DNA of 64,000 bases from Coptis chinensis (lineage: Eukaryota; Streptophyta; Magnoliopsida; Ranunculales; Ranunculaceae): the NCBI GenBank assembly GCA_015680905.1, contig CM027381.1, forward strand, positions 70,979,501 to 71,043,500. Reading direction: 5' to 3'. The notes beneath the pieces are model-generated. The model had not been told where the DNA came from. It searched no databases and worked only from the letters and a program-made list of their open reading frames with translations. This document shows, piece by piece, positions 1-22,896 of the stretch. Each line of letters begins with the position of its first letter. Position 1 is the first letter of the stretch. A program made the position numbers and the translations under genes.

Positions 1-47
1 CTTTCTGACCATTCGCCTACAGTTATCTCGATCTCCAATTCTTATTC

Positions 48-2113
48 ATGCAGGCCCCATTCCAGTTTCTGAATTATTGGGTTGTCAATCCTTCTTTCAA
101 GGACACTCTTATTAATTGCTGGTCTATTCCTAGACAGGGAAATCCATCTTTCATGTTTTGCAAGAAATTAAAGATGTTCAAGGAAGCCCTCAAGGGCTGG
201 CCTATATTCAGTTCCACTGATCTTCAAAATCAGGTGGTCGCTGCCTGGGCCAATCTAGAAGATATTCAAATGAAAATGCAGAAGCGACCTTTTGATTCTC
301 ACCTTTCTAATCTAGAAAGGTTCCATAGATCTGAGCTTTGTGACCTTATGCTTATGGAGGAGTATGACCTCATGCAGAGGACAAACACTGACTGGCTATC
401 CTTTGGTGACAAAGGTAATGCCTTCTTCCACAATTCTGTAAAGGTAAAGAAGACTAGGAACAACATATGGTCTATTTTGGATTCTCAAGGAACCCAGCAG
501 GATGGTTAATCTAATGTTGCTCAGGCATTCATATCTTTCTATAAAAATTTGTTGGGTACTTCTTCTTCATCTTCATGTAACCCTCGGATCCTAGAGCATC
601 TTAACCTTCAAGTGTTGCCCCCTGAGAGTGCCGCTAGATTGATCAAGGATATATATATCTTGGAAATCAAGGAAGCATTCTTCTCTATAGATGATAACAA
701 AACACCTGGGCCTGATGGATTTAATTATTTCTTCTTCAAGAAAGTCTGGGATATTGTTGGTGAAGATTTCTCTCTCGCAGTCCAACATATATTCAATCAA
801 AAGTCCATACCAAGAGGTACAAACTCCACTCTCCTATGTTTAATTCCAAAAAATCTTGCACGTTCTAAGGTTGATGAATTCAGGCCCATTGCTTGTTGTA
901 ATACCATTTACAAATGTGTTGCAAAGATTCTAACAAGCAGGATAAAAGAATACATGCCCTACTTAATCTCTCCGGCTCAGTCTGCCTTTGTACCAAGCAG
1001 AAACATCCAAGATAACATTATCCTTGCGCGTGAGCTTATTCGAGGTTACACCAGGAAACATGGCGCAATTAAGATTGACATAAAGAAGGCTTTTGATTCA
1101 GTCAATTGGGAAGCCATGGGTATGATTATGTAGAGATTTGGTTTCCCTCCTCTCTTTATAGAGTGGCTATGTATGTGCTTCACTACTCCTTATTCCATTA
1201 TCATCAATGGAACCTCTAAAGGATTCTTTGAAGGTGAACAAGGTCTGAGGTAGGGTGACCCTATTTCACCTTATATTTTTGTCCTTGTGATGGAGGTGCT
1301 CTCTGGCCTTCTAAATCAAGCCCTCTATTTTGGACACATTCATCCGCATTCTAAATGCTGAAAGCTGAGTATCCCTCACTTATTTTTTGCAGACGATGCT
1401 CTTCTTTTTTGCAAAGGAGATATGACTTCTATTCTTGCAATCAAGGAAATTCTTCAGCAATTTTCTCTCCTCACAGGATTGCATATCAACTCAGCTAAAT
1501 CATCTCTGTTGGTTAGTTGTATGTCTCATGAAGCTAGACTGGACTTGGCTAATGCTTTGGGTATACCCCTTATATCTCCGCCTCTTATATATCTTGGTTT
1601 ACCACTTACTTCTTCAAGGCTAGGTATACGAGATTGTCTTCCTATGGTAGAGAGATTGACTTCGCGAATCTCAAATTGGAAGAATATATCCTTGACAAGG
1701 GCCGGCGGACTTGAACTTATCCAATAAGTACTCTCGTCCTTCCAAGTCTACTGGTCTAAAACCTTTTTTTCTTGCCAAAAAAAGTCCTGGACAATGTATC
1801 TAAGATTTGCAATCATTTTTTATGGTCTGGCCCCAATATGACACGGAAGATGCATCGTGCCAGCCATGAAGTATTGAGGTATGCTAAAGATCAAGGTGGT
1901 TTGGATATGATTGATGTAAGAACTTGGAACAAAGTTGCTTACTGCGGCTTGATTTTAAGAATTGTTGTGAAAGATGGCTCACTGTGGTCAAACTGGACAT
2001 GGAGCCAACAAATAAAGCAGTCCTTCTTTTGGACTATGAAAACACCCGCAAGCTGCTCTTGGGTATGGAGGGGGATTATGAAGCATAGAAACATTGCTCG
2101 AAATTTTGTTTGA
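48..2113 (+). pseudogene. LINE reverse transcriptase region, broken
   Basis: Remains of the LINE ORF2 reverse transcriptase, which would copy the element's RNA at a nicked target. The PGPDGF block is near 703-720, the EFRPIA block near 877-895, and the KAFDSVNW block holding the first catalytic aspartate near 1085-1110. The FADD catalytic box is near 1385-1400. The block that is usually RQGDP reads R-stop-GDP near 1244-1260, which fits a single CAG to TAG change. Reading is open at 48-509, 549-1133, 1422-1727 and 1772-2113 in two frames. Stops, including TAA after 509 and TAG after 1133, and a frame change near 1730 break it. It is certainly inactive. Confidence 0.88.
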
Positions 2114-2307
2114 TATGTTATTGCAGATGGGACTAACACCCTCTTCTGGCACGACCCATGGTGTTCAAGTCAGCCTCTTTGGGAATCAACAGTAGCGAGA
2201 AACTCCTTCACTCTCCCTGTTGACGCAAAGGTTAGTGAAATCTTGGACCAAGGCAACTAGTCCTCACTGGTGACGTCTATTTCCTCGACTCCCCTGAAAA
2301 TCTCATC

Positions 2308-3498
2308 TTGGAATGCGTAATGAATCGCTTTCTCGACAAAGATGAAGTAATCTGGTCACCGAGCAGCTCGGGTGACTTTTCAGTCAAATCAGCTTATGCG
2401 GTTCTGCGAAAAGTGAGACCAAATGTAAAATGGTACAGAGTTGTTTGGGGCAAACTCTCTATTCAAAATTCTCTTTTACCTTGTGGCAATTGCTTTCAAA
2501 CTGCCTTTCTACTCAAGATAGATTGATACAGAAGAAGACCTTGAAATTCTCTAAATGCAGTCTCTGCGGTAAGCCGGTAACTCTTCTGAGCAATCAAAGC
2601 ATTTGTTCTTCGATTGTCAGTACTCCAAACAAGTATGGGCCACTGTGAAAAACAACATTGGACTAGGGGATCTTGTTAAAGACTCTACTTCGGAATTGTA
2701 CAACATTTTCAGGCTATGTAGACAAAGCTCCACTTGTGTCGATATATTTAAAGTCTTTGTTGGAGCCATTGTACATGAACTCTGGTGTGAAAGAAACAGA
2801 CGGAAGAAGAAGAATATTTCGCTGACTTCCCAACAGCTAAGCACAAAGATTATGGCCTCAATGAAGCTATATCTTCAGAAGAACCTGTCAGAAGTCAAAG
2901 ATTCTTATACCTTTCGAGCACTTGTAACCAGGCTCGGACTGCAACTAAATTTCAAACATCAGGAAGTTCTTTGGTGCAAGTGGAAGCCAGCTGAACAGGG
3001 AGCTTTCATGCTTAACACTGATGGATCTGTCTAGCAAACTGGAAATGGGTATGGAGGAACAATTTGCAATGCTTTGGGGAATGTAGCTCGAGCTTATGCA
3101 GGCATCTCTTCCAAGCACTCTGTTATCTTTTAGGAGATTCACGCTGTAGTGTAGCAGTTGGGCTTAAGCAGGCCCAAGATTTAGGTATTGACAAGCTGGA
3201 AGTCAATTTTGACTCTCTTGGGGCCATAAACATCTTAAATGGCATCGAGTGATGTCCATTATACTGTTCTAATATGGTAGCCTATATTAGATGTCTTACA
3301 AACTCTTTTGTAAAATGCTCTTTCAGTCATATCTTTAGAGAAGGAAATCGGGCAGCCGACTACTTTTCAAAGTTGTATAGATCGCCAGAAGAAGGTGTCA
3401 TTTTCTTTTCTCTTCCTCTAGATGCAAAGTTACATCATATAATAGAGGAAGATAGAATAGGTACTATGTATCCCCGAGTTTCATCTAATACAGGTTGA
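2308..3498 (+). pseudogene. LINE zf-RVT and RNase H region, broken
   Basis: This continues the LINE ORF2. A W-x-x-S-S-G-D-FSVKSAY block (about 2350-2400) and a C-x-x-C with a following FFDCQYSKQVW block (about 2560-2640) mark the zf-RVT region. An NTDGS motif near 3012-3030 and FREGNRAADYFSKL near 3338-3380 mark the RNase H domain, which would remove RNA from RNA:DNA hybrids. Three reading frames are used and a stop follows the NTDGSV motif. In plants this RNase H type is typical of L1 clades that gained the domain at the C-terminus. Confidence 0.83.
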
Positions 3499-3575
3499 GG
3501 TTTAATATAACCTTTAGCTTATTAAAAAAAAAAAACAACGAAACACAAGATAATCCTTGAGATAATAAGGCTTAC

Positions 3576-4385
3576 CACCACCATCCACGTTTTTTATATC
3601 AAATGCATAATCAGGTAGCACAATTAGGACATCCCGTAGAGCTGTGGAGAAAAGGTGTAAGTACTTCAGAAAGAGTACATCTAATAAAGTATTCAATAAT
3701 TCAATCTTGAACAAAAATACCACCTTTAAGCTTATTTGAGATCTCCCCATCAATTTCAGCACCAAAACCATACGGCATCTTACACCAAACAACGTAGATT
3801 TTCTTTTTCGCATCTTCTTCACTAGTAAATTGCCAACAATTAGAAAAGGAATATCAGTTAAAAGGATTATACATGGAAACCATATAAATGGAATGATGCA
3901 TAGAAACATGTAAGAGAGGTATTGATGCAACAAAACATACAATTCAAAAGAAAAGATGAATGGGTATTGATGCATAAGCACAAAAACAAACAAAAATATT
4001 GGGTGGTTGGGGCACGTGATCCGTTGGGCCAAAAATGTGAATTGGATAGCCTGTTGTGATACCATATCAGTTTAAAAGAATCTAACTAAAAGACAATTGG
4101 TAATGAGCAGAGCACCCCCAAGATCATATAGATTGTGATGCAAGGCTTTCAATGTCCCATTTGCGATTATATCTCTCTCAACTTACCTTCCAACAACCTC
4201 CGCTAATGTTCGAATACAAAAATCAATTTTTTGTTGCTCAATAAATTCCCCATCAGGTTGCTTTACATATATAATCCAATTATCGAAATTCCACTCCAAG
4301 TTAAACTTAGACAAATGATGATAGCTGAAGAAGTCATTTAGTCGGTTCTTCTGGTTGAGAGGAGTGAATTCGGAGACAGAATGTG
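3576..4385 (-). CDS. MORF/RIP (DAG-like) organellar RNA-editing factor, copy 1, partial
   Basis: MORF proteins bind PPR editing factors in mitochondria or plastids and are needed for C-to-U editing of organellar transcripts. Three exons can be read on the minus strand: 4385-4187, 3821-3724 and 3641-3576. Each is bounded by canonical AG and GT and all join in phase. The product contains the family's core: W-NFDNWII, then IRTLAEVVG, then SEEDAKKKIYVV, then YGFGAEIDGE and VLPDYAFDI. The exon breaking right after VVG and before S-E-E matches copy 2. The exon for the organelle-targeting peptide is not found. A terminal exon like that of copy 2 would lie beyond the LINE, outside the window. No stop or frameshift is seen, so it may still be intact. 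Family placement is from motif recognition. Confidence 0.75.
3868..4131. repeat. Dispersed repeat copy A (about 265 bp), retroelement fragment
   Basis: This stretch inside the first visible intron of MORF copy 1 is nearly identical to 26145-26414. Read on the minus strand it contains TGATATGGTATCACAACAGG, which resembles a primer-binding region complementary to initiator Met tRNA. It is therefore probably a piece of an LTR element. Both copies stop at the same word (AGATCATATAG). Confidence 0.6.
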
Positions 4386-4589
4386 CTGTAGGAGAAGAAA
4401 AATATTTTAAAACCAAAAAAGAGATTTGTTTCAAGTTAAAAGTTGCAACCTAGTCTGATACAAATCATACAGTAAATTAAATAATAACAAAAAACATTGA
4501 GTTCCAAACATCATTGCACAAAGATTTCAGACCGAGGATTTCTATCTGAAAAAAGAGAGTAAAGAATTGATAATTTATTCCAAGGTATA

Positions 4590-4843
4590 ATGAAACCTTT
4601 TAAATATGGTGTGGCATTATATTATTTTCCTTGTCCACAATTCATTAAGGATGAAGCGAAAATTATGTCTAGAGTGGCACAAGCTATTTCATGCAAGATA
4701 AATGGGAAGTTGTGTCCTATTATTGACACTGGGAGCAATGAGAATATTGTTTCCCAAAATATGGTTGAAGTTTACAACTTACTATTAAGCCACTTCCCGA
4801 ACCGTATTATATTAGTTAGATGGATGGTCACTGCAACAGACTG
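4590..4843 (+). pseudogene. Retroelement aspartic-protease relic (gypsy-like)
   Basis: A short open frame holds CKINGKLCPIIDTGSNENIVS, the shape of the aspartic protease of plant Ty3/gypsy polyproteins; the D-T-G catalytic triad lies near 4725-4733. Nothing of the flanking gag or reverse transcriptase remains next to it. The reading frame runs out after about 84 residues and continues in another frame (4820-5092) into non-domain sequence. It lies between MORF copies 1 and 2 and is evidently a small remnant of a retroelement. Confidence 0.6.
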
Positions 4844-17000: not shown

Positions 17001-17481
17001 TTGTATAAGTATATGTTGTTTTAGAGCTACTCACACCAAATTTTTATAATCGCTTGACCGATTTGCATGTTTGCTTATCGGGTGTGTTCATTCAATGAAC
17101 ATAATTGATAAGTTTTGACAGATTTAGTGTTGAAGAAGAGTGGTTCTTTGCTTGTGGTTTTCATAAGTAAGCGTTGCATCTCGTGATTTGTTTTGTTTTC
17201 CTTGAGGTGATATAGAATTTCAGTCTAGACAATGTTTTTGTATTTCATTTGTAAATTTTATTAAAGAGTTATTGAAATGAGAGTTGTAACCTAATCTTAT
17301 TTGTGAATCTTTGTCATGAAGAAGACTTTTGTTTAAGTTAAAATTTTTATTGGTTTTTATTATCCGCATATTTAAACTGTTTATGGGTTTTTGGAAGTGG
17401 AGAGTGCGTCACACCTCGGAGATCGAAGAGTCGGGGACAAATAATATTTTTCCGAATTCTGTCGAAATTCGGGGTGTGACA
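14020..17481 (+). mobile_element. Solo LTR (3.46 kb) inserted in the PPR fragment
   Basis: It starts TGTAACGCCCG, ends GGGGTGTGACA and is flanked by CCCGC on both sides (14015-14019 and 17482-17486). No coding sequence is present. These ends are typical of large-LTR plant gypsy elements. The same family occurs in the opposite orientation at 52614-55904; both share the GTGTGTTCATTCAATGAAC block and the GGCGCCTC-GTGGAGGAACTA repeats. Confidence 0.9.
16240..16470. repeat. Minisatellite inside the solo LTR
   Basis: Three to four copies of a roughly 55-60 bp unit (TGATTGGCCCTTCCGGGCG then GAATGGCCTTCGGGCGTAA). The GCCCTTCCGGGC and GCCTTCGGGC words could form small hairpins. Confidence 0.75.
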
Positions 17482-18059
17482 CCCGCACCGCCCGTAAACT
17501 TCTATAAGACCACTACTCAACTGCAAATGCAAATCTATTCCATTCCTAATCGAAGATCCATGAATTTCCTTAACCGAATTCAACGCCCCAACCCCCGCAA
17601 ATACACGTAACAAACCAAGAACTGTAACACAACTCGGCTTCACCCCAAACTCCCGCATTCTTCTATAAAACGCAAGTGCCTTAGTACACCCACCATCCAA
17701 CTCACTCAACCCAGACGTTATCGAGTTAAAAGTAGAGGCATTAGGTTTAACATCCATAACTTCAAACAACTGAATTGCAGTCCCAACATTCTTACAACCC
17801 GCGTAAAGTGAAATCATCGCGTTCCAAACACCAACATTTCTTTCACTCATTTCATCAAACAATTTTCTACCCGAGTTTAACGAGGCACATTTTCCATACA
17901 TGTCGACGAGTGTGTTTAGTTCCGGAAGATAAGACCACAAACTCCATAAATAAATAAATTAAGGATCGGACAAGGGAGATTTGAGTTTGTTAATTAAAGG
18001 TGACACCTTTTCTTTGTATTTGCTGCGGAACATGGTATTAGCAGTAACTGCCCACCATC

Positions 18060-18180
18060 TACTACACCATAATAGAATATTTGCAACACGCACCTTTTTT
18101 TATTTGCAACGCTTATTTAGCGTTAGTAAATTTCCAACGCTTAGCAATGTTGTAAAGCGTTGCTTTATTTGAGTGAATTT
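18060..18180 (+). repeat. Left end of the CACTA element
   Basis: Terminal inverted repeat plus subterminal words TTTGCAACGC, AACGCTTATTTAGCGTT and AACGCTTAGCAATG. It matches the right end inverted. Confidence 0.83.
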
Positions 18181-18239
18181 CTGGAATTAATTACTAACCC
18201 TTAAAAAAGAAGAAGAAGAAGAAGGTCAATCTAATTTCA

Positions 18240-18457
18240 TCAAATCTTTGAATTTTTCATTCAGTTGATTCAATTACTACTCATCTGTTATCAATTCTTG
18301 ATCTTGTTATCTGTTATCTTTGATACTTGTTGTTCTACACTTAAAACGAGTAAATGGCTCGTAGTAATCAAAATCAAAATCAAAATCCCTCGACTCGAAA
18401 TCCAATCCATTGAATCAAACTCCATTAAATCCTTCAGCTCCTTTTCAACCTCCAACT
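18240..18457 (+). pseudogene. Captured 5' gene end, identity unknown
   Basis: Following a GAA repeat (18207-18224) and a leader-like stretch, an ATG at 18355 starts MARSNQNQNQNPSTRNP, then a one-base shift leads to NQTPLNPSAPFQPPTSMMN. The low-complexity N/Q/P-rich start looks like the N-terminus of a nuclear protein. It ends abruptly at the Gbeta fragment, which runs in the opposite direction. I do not recognise the gene. Confidence 0.4.
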
Positions 18458-19006
18458 TCAATGATGAATAACACAGATTCTCTGACCAGTCGTAACATCC
18501 CACAAAGCACATGTCTGATCACCAGAGCTAGTTATCAAATGTGTATCATCATTTGGAACATACTGACACGAGGATACATAACCTTTATGCCCACTTAACA
18601 TTCTTGATAAAGGTAAATTCCCATCCTTATCAACTGGTGAATTGAGATTAAAAATGGAACACGTATTATCCAGCCCCCCACACGCAACAAACTGACTACT
18701 AGGTGAGAATGTGCATGTCATTACCCAAGCACAGGGCAGTTTTATAGCATGTGTTTTCTGACTTGTTAATGCATTCCATATAATTAATCTCCCGTCTTGT
18801 GATGCACTCACAATTCGATTCTTCTCACTTGTCCAATCCAATGAATACACCTGTCGAATATGAAATGTGAGAGTGTGAGATTAAAGATTAATAAATATTT
18901 ATATAACTTACTTTCCCAGAATGGCCTTGTAGTGTTCTACAACAAACTAGATCGGTTGGTCCGAAACTAACTGGCGTTCGTGACTGAGACCTCACGTGAG
19001 TTGCTA
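18458..19006 (-). pseudogene. AGB1: G-protein beta subunit fragment (two exons)
   Basis: Gbeta pairs with Ggamma at the plasma membrane and forms a seven-blade WD40 propeller. Two minus exons are visible: 19006-18912 (VRSQSRTPVSFGPTDLVCCR, then TLQGHSGK) and 18850 to about 18458 (VYSLDWTSEKNRIVSASQDG, SQKTHAIKLPCAWVM, HLITSSGDQTCALWDVTTGQ). The intron between them is GT-AG and in phase. The N-terminal coiled-coil exon that binds Ggamma is absent, and so are the last three to four blades; the frame stops at VIHH where the captured piece ends. It covers about 160 of the family's usual 375-380 residues. It is a captured genomic fragment in the CACTA element, not a gene. Confidence 0.9.
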
Positions 19007-19174
19007 CTGCAAATCAGAATGAAAATAAAATGATTACTCATTGATGAACATCCTCTGTTTTCATTTCAGTTTATTGAGGAGGCTGAGCGAAATTATATCA
19101 AATGGTAAGCAAATTACTCATTGAGTTGTTGTCATTGTTATGGTTATTCTCATGTTACCATCTGTTTTCACCAG

Positions 19175-19652
19175 GGAAAAATCTGCTGTTAGTCATAGCA
19201 TTACATGGCAAAATACCATTTCTGCCAATCGAGTTGAAATTGAAGGAGCAACAGCTTTCGCAGTTTCTGGTTTGTTGTGTTGTTCATTTTAATTTCCCGT
19301 CCTTGCTATTAGCATTTTGTTTTCTGCAGACGAGCTGTAATGAGCTCTTCTTGTTATATTTCCATCAAACACGTTAGGATGTTCACGACCATTCTTTCCC
19401 ACAGGTACACCAGCAGACTGCACTGCTTTGGGAATCTCTAAAACCATCTTTCCTGAAATTCCTGACCTGGTAGTTCTCAAAACTCATTTTCCTAGACGAT
19501 GTTACGAACATTCTTTCATTCGGAAGATCGTGACTTGATTAAAAATGTTCAATTTGATAAAAATCATATTTTACGTTGTTAATATGTATTTTCTGTGTAT
19601 GTTTGCAGGTACTCAGTGGAATCAACATGGGTACCAACTGCGGATACCACAT
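19175..19652 (+). pseudogene. SurE-like phosphatase fragment (three exons)
   Basis: SurE proteins are metal-dependent 5'/3'-nucleotidases. Three plus exons join in phase: 19175-19269 ([24 protein letters not shown]), 19405-19469 (TPADCTALGISKTIFPEIPDL) and 19609-19652 (VLSGINMGTNCGYH). All have AG before and GT after. The S-G-I-N and G-x-N-x-G-Y-H blocks are the family's hallmark. The N-terminal metal-binding DD motif and the C-terminal half are missing. Introns are retained, so it was copied as DNA. It lies in the CACTA element next to the Gbeta piece, on the opposite strand. Confidence 0.85.
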
Positions 19653-20055
19653 GTTAGTAAACTGCCTATTCACTTCTTCATGGTTGTTCTTTTGTTTCTT
19701 ACATTCTGATCAGTAAAGGAGATATATATTACTTGCCAATCAAAGTATATTACCTTAGAATCAAAGTATATTACCAATCAAAGTATATTACCTTAGAAAT
19801 TATTCTCATTGTTATGGTTATTCTCATTGAGATGATAATGGTGAAAACAGATGGTAAGCAAATTATATCAAATCCCAGTTAATTCATGAGCTCAAAATAC
19901 ACTGGTTATATTCATATATTCTACATATATCTTGGGCATTCTTGGTTCAGTCTCTAGTAAAAGTCATGATTAGAAGTAATTCATAATGTGGAATGGTATT
20001 AAATCTGGATCTTTGAGATGAGAGAAAAAGAAGGAAGACGAACACCTCTGTAAAA

Positions 20056-21098
20056 ATGCTTAAATCAATCTCAATTCGTCTCTACTACTATTACAAACTA
20101 CACCCTATATTAATTTTTTCCCTTTCTTTATCACTTGGTGTAACAATTTTAATTCTTTTTTCCATTTACGAAAGACGTTTTCGGTTAAGTTATAGGCAGA
20201 GTGAAGAAATGGGTTTGGTTTCCAAGAATTCTTACCCGTTTTCGAATCTTAGGAATTTAGTTATTGTTTTATGCTTGGTTAAAGGAAAACAAACTAGTTA
20301 TCTGACTTAATTTCTTTTACTTTTGGCAGGTATCTGTTGGAAAAGGGTATGATCCTCGAAATTTGTGTCTTCAATTTGTAGAACAGGAATATACATGCCG
20401 TGTATAAAATCTTTTCTAATTGATGACTTTCAAGTCTCGAGTTTGTTGCTTCTACTCACTGTTGGGATGAAGAAACAAATTGAGATATATCTTTTTAGTT
20501 TGTATTTTGTACATTATGGTCTTCGTTCCCTTCTGTTTCTAAACCTATCATTGGGAAATCTTGCGTGTGTGTGTCTGTGTGCATTTTGGTTGTAGACTAA
20601 TTTTGAAGCTGAATGTTTCTTGCAATAGAATAAATTGATTCCTTAACTGCTGTTATAGGTTGGTGATGGGTTGGCTAAGATTCTCAGAAAGCGAAAGGCA
20701 GTTTGATTGCCTAAAGAAACCTTCCACTGTAAGAATGCACAACTGCATATTACATTAATAAGTAAAAGGGCTTCACTATATTGTGGATATCTAATTAACT
20801 GGTCTACTAGCAGGCCCACCCTATTCCTGTTCATGTTGAAGATATCAAAGGTATCAAACAATAGTTAATTTGATGGTCTTTCAATCAGAATTGACAGTTT
20901 TTTTTATTCTCTTATCTACTTTACTGCGTAAAATATCAATTTTTGGGCTTGTTAAGTAAGTGGAAATTACAGCAGTACAAGGTTATAAGTGTCAGGAGGC
21001 TTTACTTTTGTTTAGTGGTGGGGAGACTAGGAAAGATGCTGGTCCTAGAAGTGAGGCTCAGAGTTACTGGGCTGTTGCTGAATCAAAAGACTGGTTTG
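20056..21098 (+). pseudogene. DUF218-like membrane protein fragment
   Basis: The ATG at 20056 opens a frame with a short basic start, a long hydrophobic helix (about residues 16-38, ILIFSLSLSLGVTILILF) and then NLRNLVIV. A later block at about 20996-21098 reads EALLLFSGGETRKDAGPRSE then AQSYWAVAESKDWF, ending at a GTGAGT donor. These two blocks match the start and the G-G-x-T-R core of a conserved eukaryotic family with a DUF218-like fold whose function is unknown. The middle and the C-terminus are missing or unreadable. It is another captured piece in the CACTA element. The last 20 bases of its second block plus intron start recur at about 21940-21965. Confidence 0.68.
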
Positions 21099-21263
21099 GT
21101 GAGTTTGTTATTGTTAAGTAGTGGGAGTCAAGTTGGATTTTCGTTGAGTCTCCATAAAGTGTACGACATATATAACAGTTCGTCTAGCCAAAAATGAATC
21201 TAAACGAATATCACTTTCAATGTTGACTAAATGTTGCTTTGCACTAATTAATCTGGAATTTAG

Positions 21264-21851
21264 GAACTGTTCCACCTCCTCAAGGTAGTTCTCTTCCTAT
21301 CTAATATAGGGTTTCTTTCTCTTTGAGCTGTAGATCGAGTTGTGCTAATTCTTTTGTTTTATTCTATTATAATTAGGTTATCCAAAGGACGCATACCCTC
21401 CACCAGGGTACCCTCCACAAGGTTATCCACAGAGTTACCCTCCTCAAGGTTACCCTCCCCAAGGTGGATACCCTCCACAGTACTCTCAACCACCGCCACA
21501 AAAAAATCAGAGCAGCGTTGGTTGCATGGAAGGATGGTAAGTTGTTTCTTTGTTTGCTTTATTTTGATCGGTCTTAAACAACTAGATCGAACGATTATAG
21601 TGTTTTGGTGTAGCGTGTGGACTTCACTGTCATTCACGTTAATCTCGTGACACTAATTGTTTTCTTTTTTCTTTACGCAATATATAGCCCCATATTCACG
21701 CAGTCGTTGAATATGGCGTAGAGAGGGGGAAACATAGTATTTTTATATCAAATTTATATTTATTAGCCCAACGAATTAAATTGTGTGTTTAATGATCTTG
21801 TGCAGTTTGGCCGCTCTTTGCTGTTGCTGCCTTCTGGAAGCGTGCTTTTGA
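21264..21851 (+). pseudogene. Cysteine-rich transmembrane (CYSTM) protein, start missing
   Basis: CYSTM proteins are short tail-anchored membrane proteins linked to stress tolerance. Three plus exons join in phase: 21264-21284 (GTVPPPQ), 21377-21536 (repeated P-P-Q-G-Y units, then SSVGCMEG) and 21806-21851 (CLAALCCCCLLEACF and stop TGA). The C-terminal cysteine-rich helix is complete and all splice sites are canonical. Only the first exon with the start codon is missing, so it is the most complete of the captured pieces. It lies in the CACTA element between the DUF218-like and L37 pieces, all on plus. Confidence 0.88.
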
Positions 21852-22001
21852 GCACTGAGATGATGGATGAAGGACGGACTTAATAATTTGATTTCAATAC
21901 ACAGGCGTTCATGTACCCCTTCTGTGCAGGATATTGGGGAAGACTGGTTTGGTGAGTTTGTTATTGTTTTTTGAGTTGTTTGTTATTGTTTCCATCTACA
22001 G

Positions 22002-22369
22002 AAGAGTCGTTGTTCTGCTTGTGCTTACCCAGCTAGTCGCATCAGAAAATGTAACGATCTAAAAATATTGTTATTTTATTTTTGCTATTATTATTATTAA
22101 TAATAATAATTTGGTTTAATAGATAACTGGAGTGTGAAAGCTATTCGAAGGAAGACTACTGGAACTGGAAGGATGCAGTATCTTCATCATCTTCCTCGCA
22201 GATTCAAGAGTAGTTTCAGAGAAGGTATATAATAAACAAACAAACAAACAAACAAGCCCCCTTTGTTTATATTAGTTGTTTGGTTTTATATATAGTTTAT
22301 TGAAAATGGGAAATGATTTTAGGTACTCAAGCTGCTCCCAGGAGTAAGGGAGCTGCTGCTTCTTCTTAA
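22002..22369 (+). pseudogene. RPL37: Ribosomal protein L37 (eL37) fragment, start missing
   Basis: eL37 is a zinc-binding protein of the large cytosolic ribosomal subunit. Three plus exons join in phase: 22002-22050 (KSRCSACAYPASRIRK), 22123-22224 ([18 protein letters not shown], then RFKSSFRE) and 22323-22369 (GTQAAPRSKGAAASS, stop TAA). The C-x-x-C of the second zinc pair is present, but the exon with the start codon and first zinc pair is gone. A few residues after TGRM differ from the family (QYLHHLPR). Introns are retained. It is the last captured piece before the right end of the CACTA element. Confidence 0.92.
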
Positions 22370-22559
22370 TTGATTGAACGTGGCGATATGTGGTATTGTT
22401 TTTGTAGTTGTTTTAGAATCGAGGGGAATGAATTTTGTCTGTTTTGAGAAATGAATGACTTGATGTTTTGAGAATTTTATGTTGAATATGCTTGTTCAAT
22501 TAATTGGTTTAGCTGGTCTCGCTACAAAATATGAGAAATTATTATTTTTTTATTAGCAA

Positions 22560-22896
22560 CCCATTAGCAATGGTTTATAACCGTTACAAACGAATTTTAA
22601 ATTATTTTTTTTAAATTAACTAACAACTTTGCAACGGTTACTAACCGTTGGTAAAAATTTGAACAAATTACCAACGCTTAAAAAGCGTTTGTGAAATAAA
22701 AAAGCGTTGCAAAGGTTTTAAATATGTGTACGCAATAGTTATCATAAGTGTTGGAAAGTTCTGTTTGCAATGCTTTTTAAGCGTTGCAAATATTTCCAAC
22801 ACTTTACCGACGCCATATTTGCAACGCTTAAAAAGCGTTGCGAAAATTATTAGCAACGTTTTTTTGCCGTTGCAAATAGCCTGTTATGGTGTAGTG
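22560..22896 (-). repeat. Right end of the CACTA element
   Basis: Terminal repeat plus many CAACGCTT/AAGCGTTG and AACGGTTA-type subterminal words in both orientations, as expected for transposase-binding regions of CACTA elements. Confidence 0.85.

Follow-up and report, generated by a model that had tools for sequence, protein, structure and literature searches.

A mosaic CACTA element in the Coptis chinensis genome

A 64,000-nt stretch of the Coptis chinensis genome (assembly GCA_015680905.1, contig CM027381.1, positions 70,979,501 to 71,043,500 of the forward strand; hereafter the window) contains a complete, non-autonomous CACTA element of 4837 bp (window 18060-22896), whose interior is a mosaic of intron-bearing pieces with six likely donor loci elsewhere in the genome, on contigs C2 (Gbeta and CYSTM), C5 (SurE), C4 (a DUF218-like gene and a locus designated L016) and C3 (eL37). 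Judged from its sequence, the element is very likely a Pack-CACTA transposon. An earlier note on the window had proposed a CACTA transposon carrying pieces of at least five host genes, and we investigated this in the C. chinensis genome (935.6 Mb, 116 contigs) with searches that scored the best candidates only; further places may exist. Positions within the element are given as el 1-4837, where the window position is el + 18059.

The element is flanked by a 3-bp target site duplication (TSD), ATC/ATC. Its 5' terminal and subterminal end (18060..18207, plus strand) begins TACTACACCATAATAG, with the first C changed to T so that it reads TACTA, and is 85-87% identical to the 5' ends of eight other delimited elements. 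The 3' subterminal repeats and terminal inverted repeat (TIR; 22502..22896, plus strand) end in CTGTTATGGTGTAGTG, and this segment alone is matched at 88-96% by 22 places among the matches listed. The 16-nt termini carry one mismatch and none at the two ends; when the 16-nt terminus was sought in the window with up to 2 mismatches, the only 2 matches were the element's own ends (0.12 expected; none of 100 shuffles gave as many). A subterminal motif is confined to el 22-73 and 4570-4808, and the repeats fall into families D1-D3. Because ten of its longest stop-free frames other than Gbeta all lack a Pfam match, we saw no transposase in the element, and it is absent among the 150 scored places for PF02992 (Transposase_21). 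The ends, flanks, subterminal repeats, coordinates and lack of a transposase were thus all as the earlier note had described them. Among the best 40 of 1761 candidates, the sole near-full match to the exact mosaic was the element itself.

Likely donors of the captured pieces

To locate the parental genes we searched the genome with the whole element first and then piece by piece. Matching genes were found as separate loci at unlinked places on four contigs, which bears out the proposal of at least five unrelated donors, and on their sequences five of the six matched loci are recognisable as genes.

Four of the proposed identities were confirmed by Pfam. The Gbeta piece (two exons and introns; 18477..19033, minus strand) is 97% identical to C2:8306369-8306925 and gave WD40_Gbeta at E = 3.6e-48 in an unspliced frame; it has three genome places, namely itself, the donor and a 77% paralogue. 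The SurE piece (three exons and introns; 19121..19762, plus strand) is 95.6% identical to C5:86910979-86911630, the CYSTM piece (three exons, the first truncated; 21269..21909, plus strand) is 91% identical to C2:113505250-113505922, and the eL37 piece (exons and introns, the first exon truncated; 21988..22512, plus strand) is 87% identical to C3:4854132-4854640, with a further 34 nt at 97%; on hand-spliced exons these gave SurE (1.1e-18), CYSTM (5.9e-10) and Ribosomal_L37e (1.3e-7). Outside the element the CYSTM donor is the only long match, with one short 75% stretch besides, the remaining places matching the tail of the query. The eL37 piece had been read as three exons, and while Pfam supports eL37, the first exon's acceptor is not real: the piece begins mid-exon, and what looks like an acceptor, CTACAG, lies within an exon of the donor.

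The remaining host pieces come in several parts. DUF218-like piece 1 with its upstream sequence (19853..20268, plus strand) is 96.7% identical to the related element L021e and 96% to locus L032 (C4:22515619-22516114); within it 20043-20267 is the match to the donor gene, and the upstream part matches several other places at 91-96%. Piece 2, an exon end and intron start (20994..21115, plus strand), is 98.3% identical to L032, and a 41-nt scrap that heads the eL37 piece (21942..21982, plus strand) is 97.6% identical to it. The name DUF218-like is a provisional label that could not be confirmed, since Pfam gave no match for the pieces or for the exon of the donor. Set inside the DUF218-like piece is a piece (20276..20993, plus strand) 96.7% identical to C4:53882384-53883096 (L016), an additional probable donor that the earlier list lacked; its hand-spliced reading had no Pfam match, and a 107-nt part of it has three further places at 97-99%. 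L032 was taken as donor for its complete, unbroken exon, and L016 for having the longest match seen outside family elements; on these grounds they are the likeliest, if unproven, donors of their pieces.

The family-shared 5' segment (el 149-421; 18223..18479, plus strand; 84% to L009e), which had been called the 5' end of a further gene, is indeed present, but has no Pfam match, and its five genome matches are this element, L009e, L031 (which has a 5' terminus) and two places beside L014 and L020, all shown or probable family elements, with no free-standing donor among them. Piece X (19029..19120, plus strand), with a 35-nt exon-like stretch, FIEEAERNYIKW, has parts in common with L021e, L027e and L012e. 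Two fillers derive from the SurE intron: a repeat copy (19800..19827, plus strand; 92.9% to el 1067-1094 and to the SurE donor) and an inverted copy (19839..19857, minus strand) that forms a 19-nt perfect inverted repeat with 19155-19173 and matches the donor inverted. The stretch 21116..21261 (plus strand) lies within a 98.5% match to L009e (el 2312-3202) and has an 86% match at C4:93425816.

By eye, gene content continues past the captured part at the Gbeta, SurE and eL37 donors, as does the DUF218-like exon at L032. No pair of CACTA ends (up to 3 substitutions) was found in the 9.0-9.5 kb of donor loci L016, L017 (SurE), L018 (CYSTM), L019 (Gbeta) and L022 (eL37), and no CACTA-end likeness in the 5 kb around L032; a single likeness in L018 lies inside the CYSTM intron and was copied along into the element. 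Given that several gene-like exons stand close together in the window, one could suppose an old cluster of host genes or pseudogenes merely flanked by a CACTA element. The unlinked donors already contradict this, the pieces start mid-exon, and relatives elsewhere hold parts of the same set inside the same ends, so that we regard such a cluster as extremely improbable. Gene annotators should accordingly be warned against counting this element's pieces of Gbeta, SurE, CYSTM and eL37 as genes, which they are not.

The pieces keep introns that match those of the donors, which supports capture at the DNA level and rules out capture of processed cDNA, as the earlier note had argued from the intact introns. 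The genome itself provides a contrast in three apparent copies of eL37 without an intron, likely processed pseudogenes, that join stretches which here have an intron between them (C8:79875242-79875370, C8:80339124-80339252 and C3:118867637-118867765).

Outside the element, about 120 nt upstream, a frame on the minus strand (window 17347-17940) resembles, by eye, a portion of a pentatricopeptide repeat gene.

A family of elements and a transposase-bearing relative

The expectation that other copies share these ends was borne out. A 28-nt terminus pattern (up to 2 mismatches) occurs 1601 times genome-wide (799 forward, 802 reverse; control 0), corresponding to about 800 elements at most, should every terminus have a partner. 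Places were listed individually for C1 and part of C2 only; the 78 perfect C1 termini listed form 21 neighbouring plus/minus pairs less than 30 kb apart, spanning 1.6-25 kb, where a rough formula predicts about 0.5. Nine elements were delimited, six of them with a perfect 3-bp TSD (all except L009e, L011e and L027e).

By Pfam, relatives hold pieces of further host genes: acetyl-CoA carboxylase in L009e, TCP-1 chaperonin in L021e, enoyl-CoA hydratase in L011e, and HSP70 and nucleotide-sugar transferase in L024e; SPT5 KOW1 in L021e was just above the cut-off in one scan and below it in another. Three of ten pieces in one set of scans, and two of three in the other, had no match. About 2.0-2.5 kb into L009e (L009 with L030), two frames match the acetyl-CoA carboxylase domains Biotin_lipoyl and ACC_central.

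Transposase_21 is abundant in the genome (2715 first-look candidates; all of the best 150, which were scored, exceeded the cut-off). An element of 17,662 bp at C1:32777664-32795325 (TSD AAT) has the same ends as the 4.8-kb element (5' 85%, 3' 92%) and matches PF02992 in two frames (E = 4.4e-11 and 4.2e-19) and PF13960 (DUF4218) in a third (4.7e-21), a fourth frame having no Pfam match. It is a plausible transposase source for the family. A second pair of termini on C1 (C1:32449387-32467067, 17,681 bp) lies about 328 kb from it.

Shared and private pieces

Much of the mosaic recurs in relatives. Common to L009e are el 164-420, 1096-1767 and 2312-3202; to L012e, L010 and L013, el 1016-1461; to L021e, el 970-1035 and 1794-2209; to L020, el 2030-2344; and the eL37 tail is common to seven other elements. 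The Gbeta and CYSTM pieces, searched for by piece in the genome, were found in no other element, and for that reason are probably the latest captures, the ends, SurE piece and eL37 tail appearing older and shared. Given that L009e carries el 1040-1099, which spans the join of X and SurE, in inverted orientation (as does L014), the X-SurE arrangement probably predates L009e. Similarly, the DUF218-like piece of L021e is continuous and lacks the L016 piece, which therefore looks like a later insertion.

These patterns might reflect a modular assembly line, in which the CACTA ends stay constant, the sequence between them is cut and refilled time and again, elements are copied from one another as well as from host genes, and captured exons pass among many elements and recombine into new sets; the present element would then be one product, its modules seen apart in L009e, L012e, L020 and L021e and joined by two private captures. 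We put this forward as a tentative possibility.

Mechanism of capture

Microhomology at the six joins for which both sources are known is 3, 2, 4, 0, 4 and 9 bp, a total of 22 bp against 4.5 expected (P = 2e-4, 20,000 simulated random joins). Fillers of 7 nt stand at two joins (el 2209/2217 and 3202/3210, alignment bounds), and the SurE intron was recopied beside the SurE piece, once in each orientation. Given this microhomology, the fillers and the two-way recopying, we favour gap repair with template switching as the likely route of capture; such scars are expected from interrupted gap repair of this kind (PMC8277862). Transposase from elements like the 17,662-bp one would move the family, and gaps would arise, probably from excision or stalled replication. 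The polymerase filling them would jump, where short microhomology allowed, to a different template, be it a host gene or possibly another element, and through such fillings the interior would be rebuilt piecewise. The captured exons would most likely have no protein function and travel as passengers that may give rise to chimeric or small RNA.

An alternative is tandem insertion and re-mobilisation, in which two adjacent CACTA elements flank host DNA, lose their inner ends, and move as a whole by the outer ones. It has been put forward for the Pack-CACTA elements of Arabidopsis and for other Pack-TYPE elements (PMC8903248, PMC13317346), and accounts for whole intron-exon stretches. Against it, the likely donors here are unlinked on four contigs; the subterminal motif of nine elements is confined to their ends, save for one match in L021e; and inner TIR-like matches occur in two of the nine, that of the present element being present in the CYSTM donor intron as well. 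The recopied and inverted SurE intron, the fillers and the microhomology fit switching better, and we consider tandem insertion rather unlikely.

Several points nevertheless weigh against the template-switching interpretation and the history built on it. One of the six tested joins has no microhomology, and the test left out the filler joins, the X-SurE join (one side of which has no known source) and the join of the DUF218-like scrap with eL37. For the shared tail, the PHI test gave no support for recombination (P = 0.43, 0.93 and 0.88). The scarcity of inner ends is weak evidence, both because a rough estimate predicts about one chance motif match per element and because the tandem model, too, predicts that inner ends are lost cleanly. 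The capture order rests on the sharing of pieces among elements rather than on a tree, and the 17,662-bp element, whose transposase matches are in separate frames, may not be intact. Finally, the DUF218-like and L016 pieces gave 44 matches in the piece search, short parts of them matching other places equally well or better; some of these alternatives lie within a few kb of family 3' ends (C1:33944464, C2:106764728 and C4:33300025).

Divergence of the 3' tail

The 5' bodies of L010, L012 and L013 are mostly 0-2% different (3-7% in a few 250-nt intervals), and their last kilobase 3-13%. We had considered swapping of 3' tails between elements, a claim we dropped when alignment showed the differences massed at CAG/CTG sites. 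Compared with window 21955-22896, the tails of L009-L015 show scrambled differences of 1-3 nt within 4 nt of CHG/CG, and their AT-rich introns are near identical; between the 4.8-kb element and seven other tails, divergence is 1.2-4.6% away from CHG/CG (bases within 4 nt set aside) and 6.9-16.2% near it. The excess is therefore probably due mostly to consensus errors, or to mutation, at methylated sites, and given that such errors are probable at CHG/CG in repeats, the tail divergence should not be dated. Against a site-error explanation, no excess appears in the SurE piece of these elements (0-1.0% near such sites) or in el 1-148. In the shared tail 48% of informative site pairs are incompatible. 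A literature search for methylation-linked nanopore errors found none.

Coding potential

The earlier note had suggested that in-phase splice sites might permit chimeric transcripts, and within two blocks they are in phase: X and SurE exons A-C form a single reading frame, and the fused L016/DUF218 exon (20973-21098) is in frame through CYSTM to the latter's own stop. Joining SurE exon C to the fused exon breaks the frame and soon meets a stop, and plain splicing would thus give two chimeric frames, not one. That such fragments yield functional chimeric transcripts or proteins under selection is conceivable from these frames, from Tgm-Express1, where splicing brings exons of the element into host transcripts (PMC1947982), and from the Gbeta piece, which differs from its donor at 6 of 440 exon positions, proportionally fewer than the 5 of 114 in the rest. 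The break after SurE and the reversed Gbeta piece speak against it, however, and SurE exons (3 of 200) and the rest of that piece (6 of 437) differ alike, on hand-set bounds that may be off by a few bases and with few sites. We consider functional chimeras improbable on this sequence evidence.

Relation to known systems

How DNA transposons acquire host genes is still debated. A single assembly here contains the likely donors, intermediates that differ in which pieces they hold, a relative with transposase domains and the many family termini, so that the joins can tell in what order and by what chemistry the pieces were captured. The phenomenon itself is already known, since soybean Tgm-Express1, a 5.7-kb CACTA element in the wp allele, carries pieces, introns included, of five host genes unrelated to one another (PMC1947982), and maize Pack-CACTAs often carry several loci, the most among Arabidopsis, rice and maize Pack elements (PMC8903248); the suggestion that five donors are unusual is weakened accordingly, and the present element is instead an unusually well resolved and rich example.

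Like Tgm-Express1, our element belongs to the CACTA superfamily and holds intron-bearing pieces of unrelated host genes. The donors are different, and six likely ones were located here together with relatives and a transposase-bearing element; Tgm-Express1 lies within an intron of a gene and has been shown to yield chimeric transcripts, whereas the Coptis element is known from sequence alone. Pack-CACTA and Pack-TYPE elements of Arabidopsis, rice and maize resemble it in being non-autonomous TIR elements that hold host DNA of one locus or of several (PMC8903248); the scars of the Coptis element differ in favouring template switching over the tandem insertion proposed for those elements. In animal Pack-TIRs, for which gap-filling and FoSTeST models exist, breakpoint microhomology has a median of 2 bp (PMC8277862); the microhomology is alike, in our case in a plant CACTA element with several captures in one element. 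Chenopodium CACTA elements carry gene fragments such as AP2 and Neprosin beside their own coding region (PMC8978399), a likeness by description only, and grapevine CACTAs likewise carry host pieces (PMC2528002).

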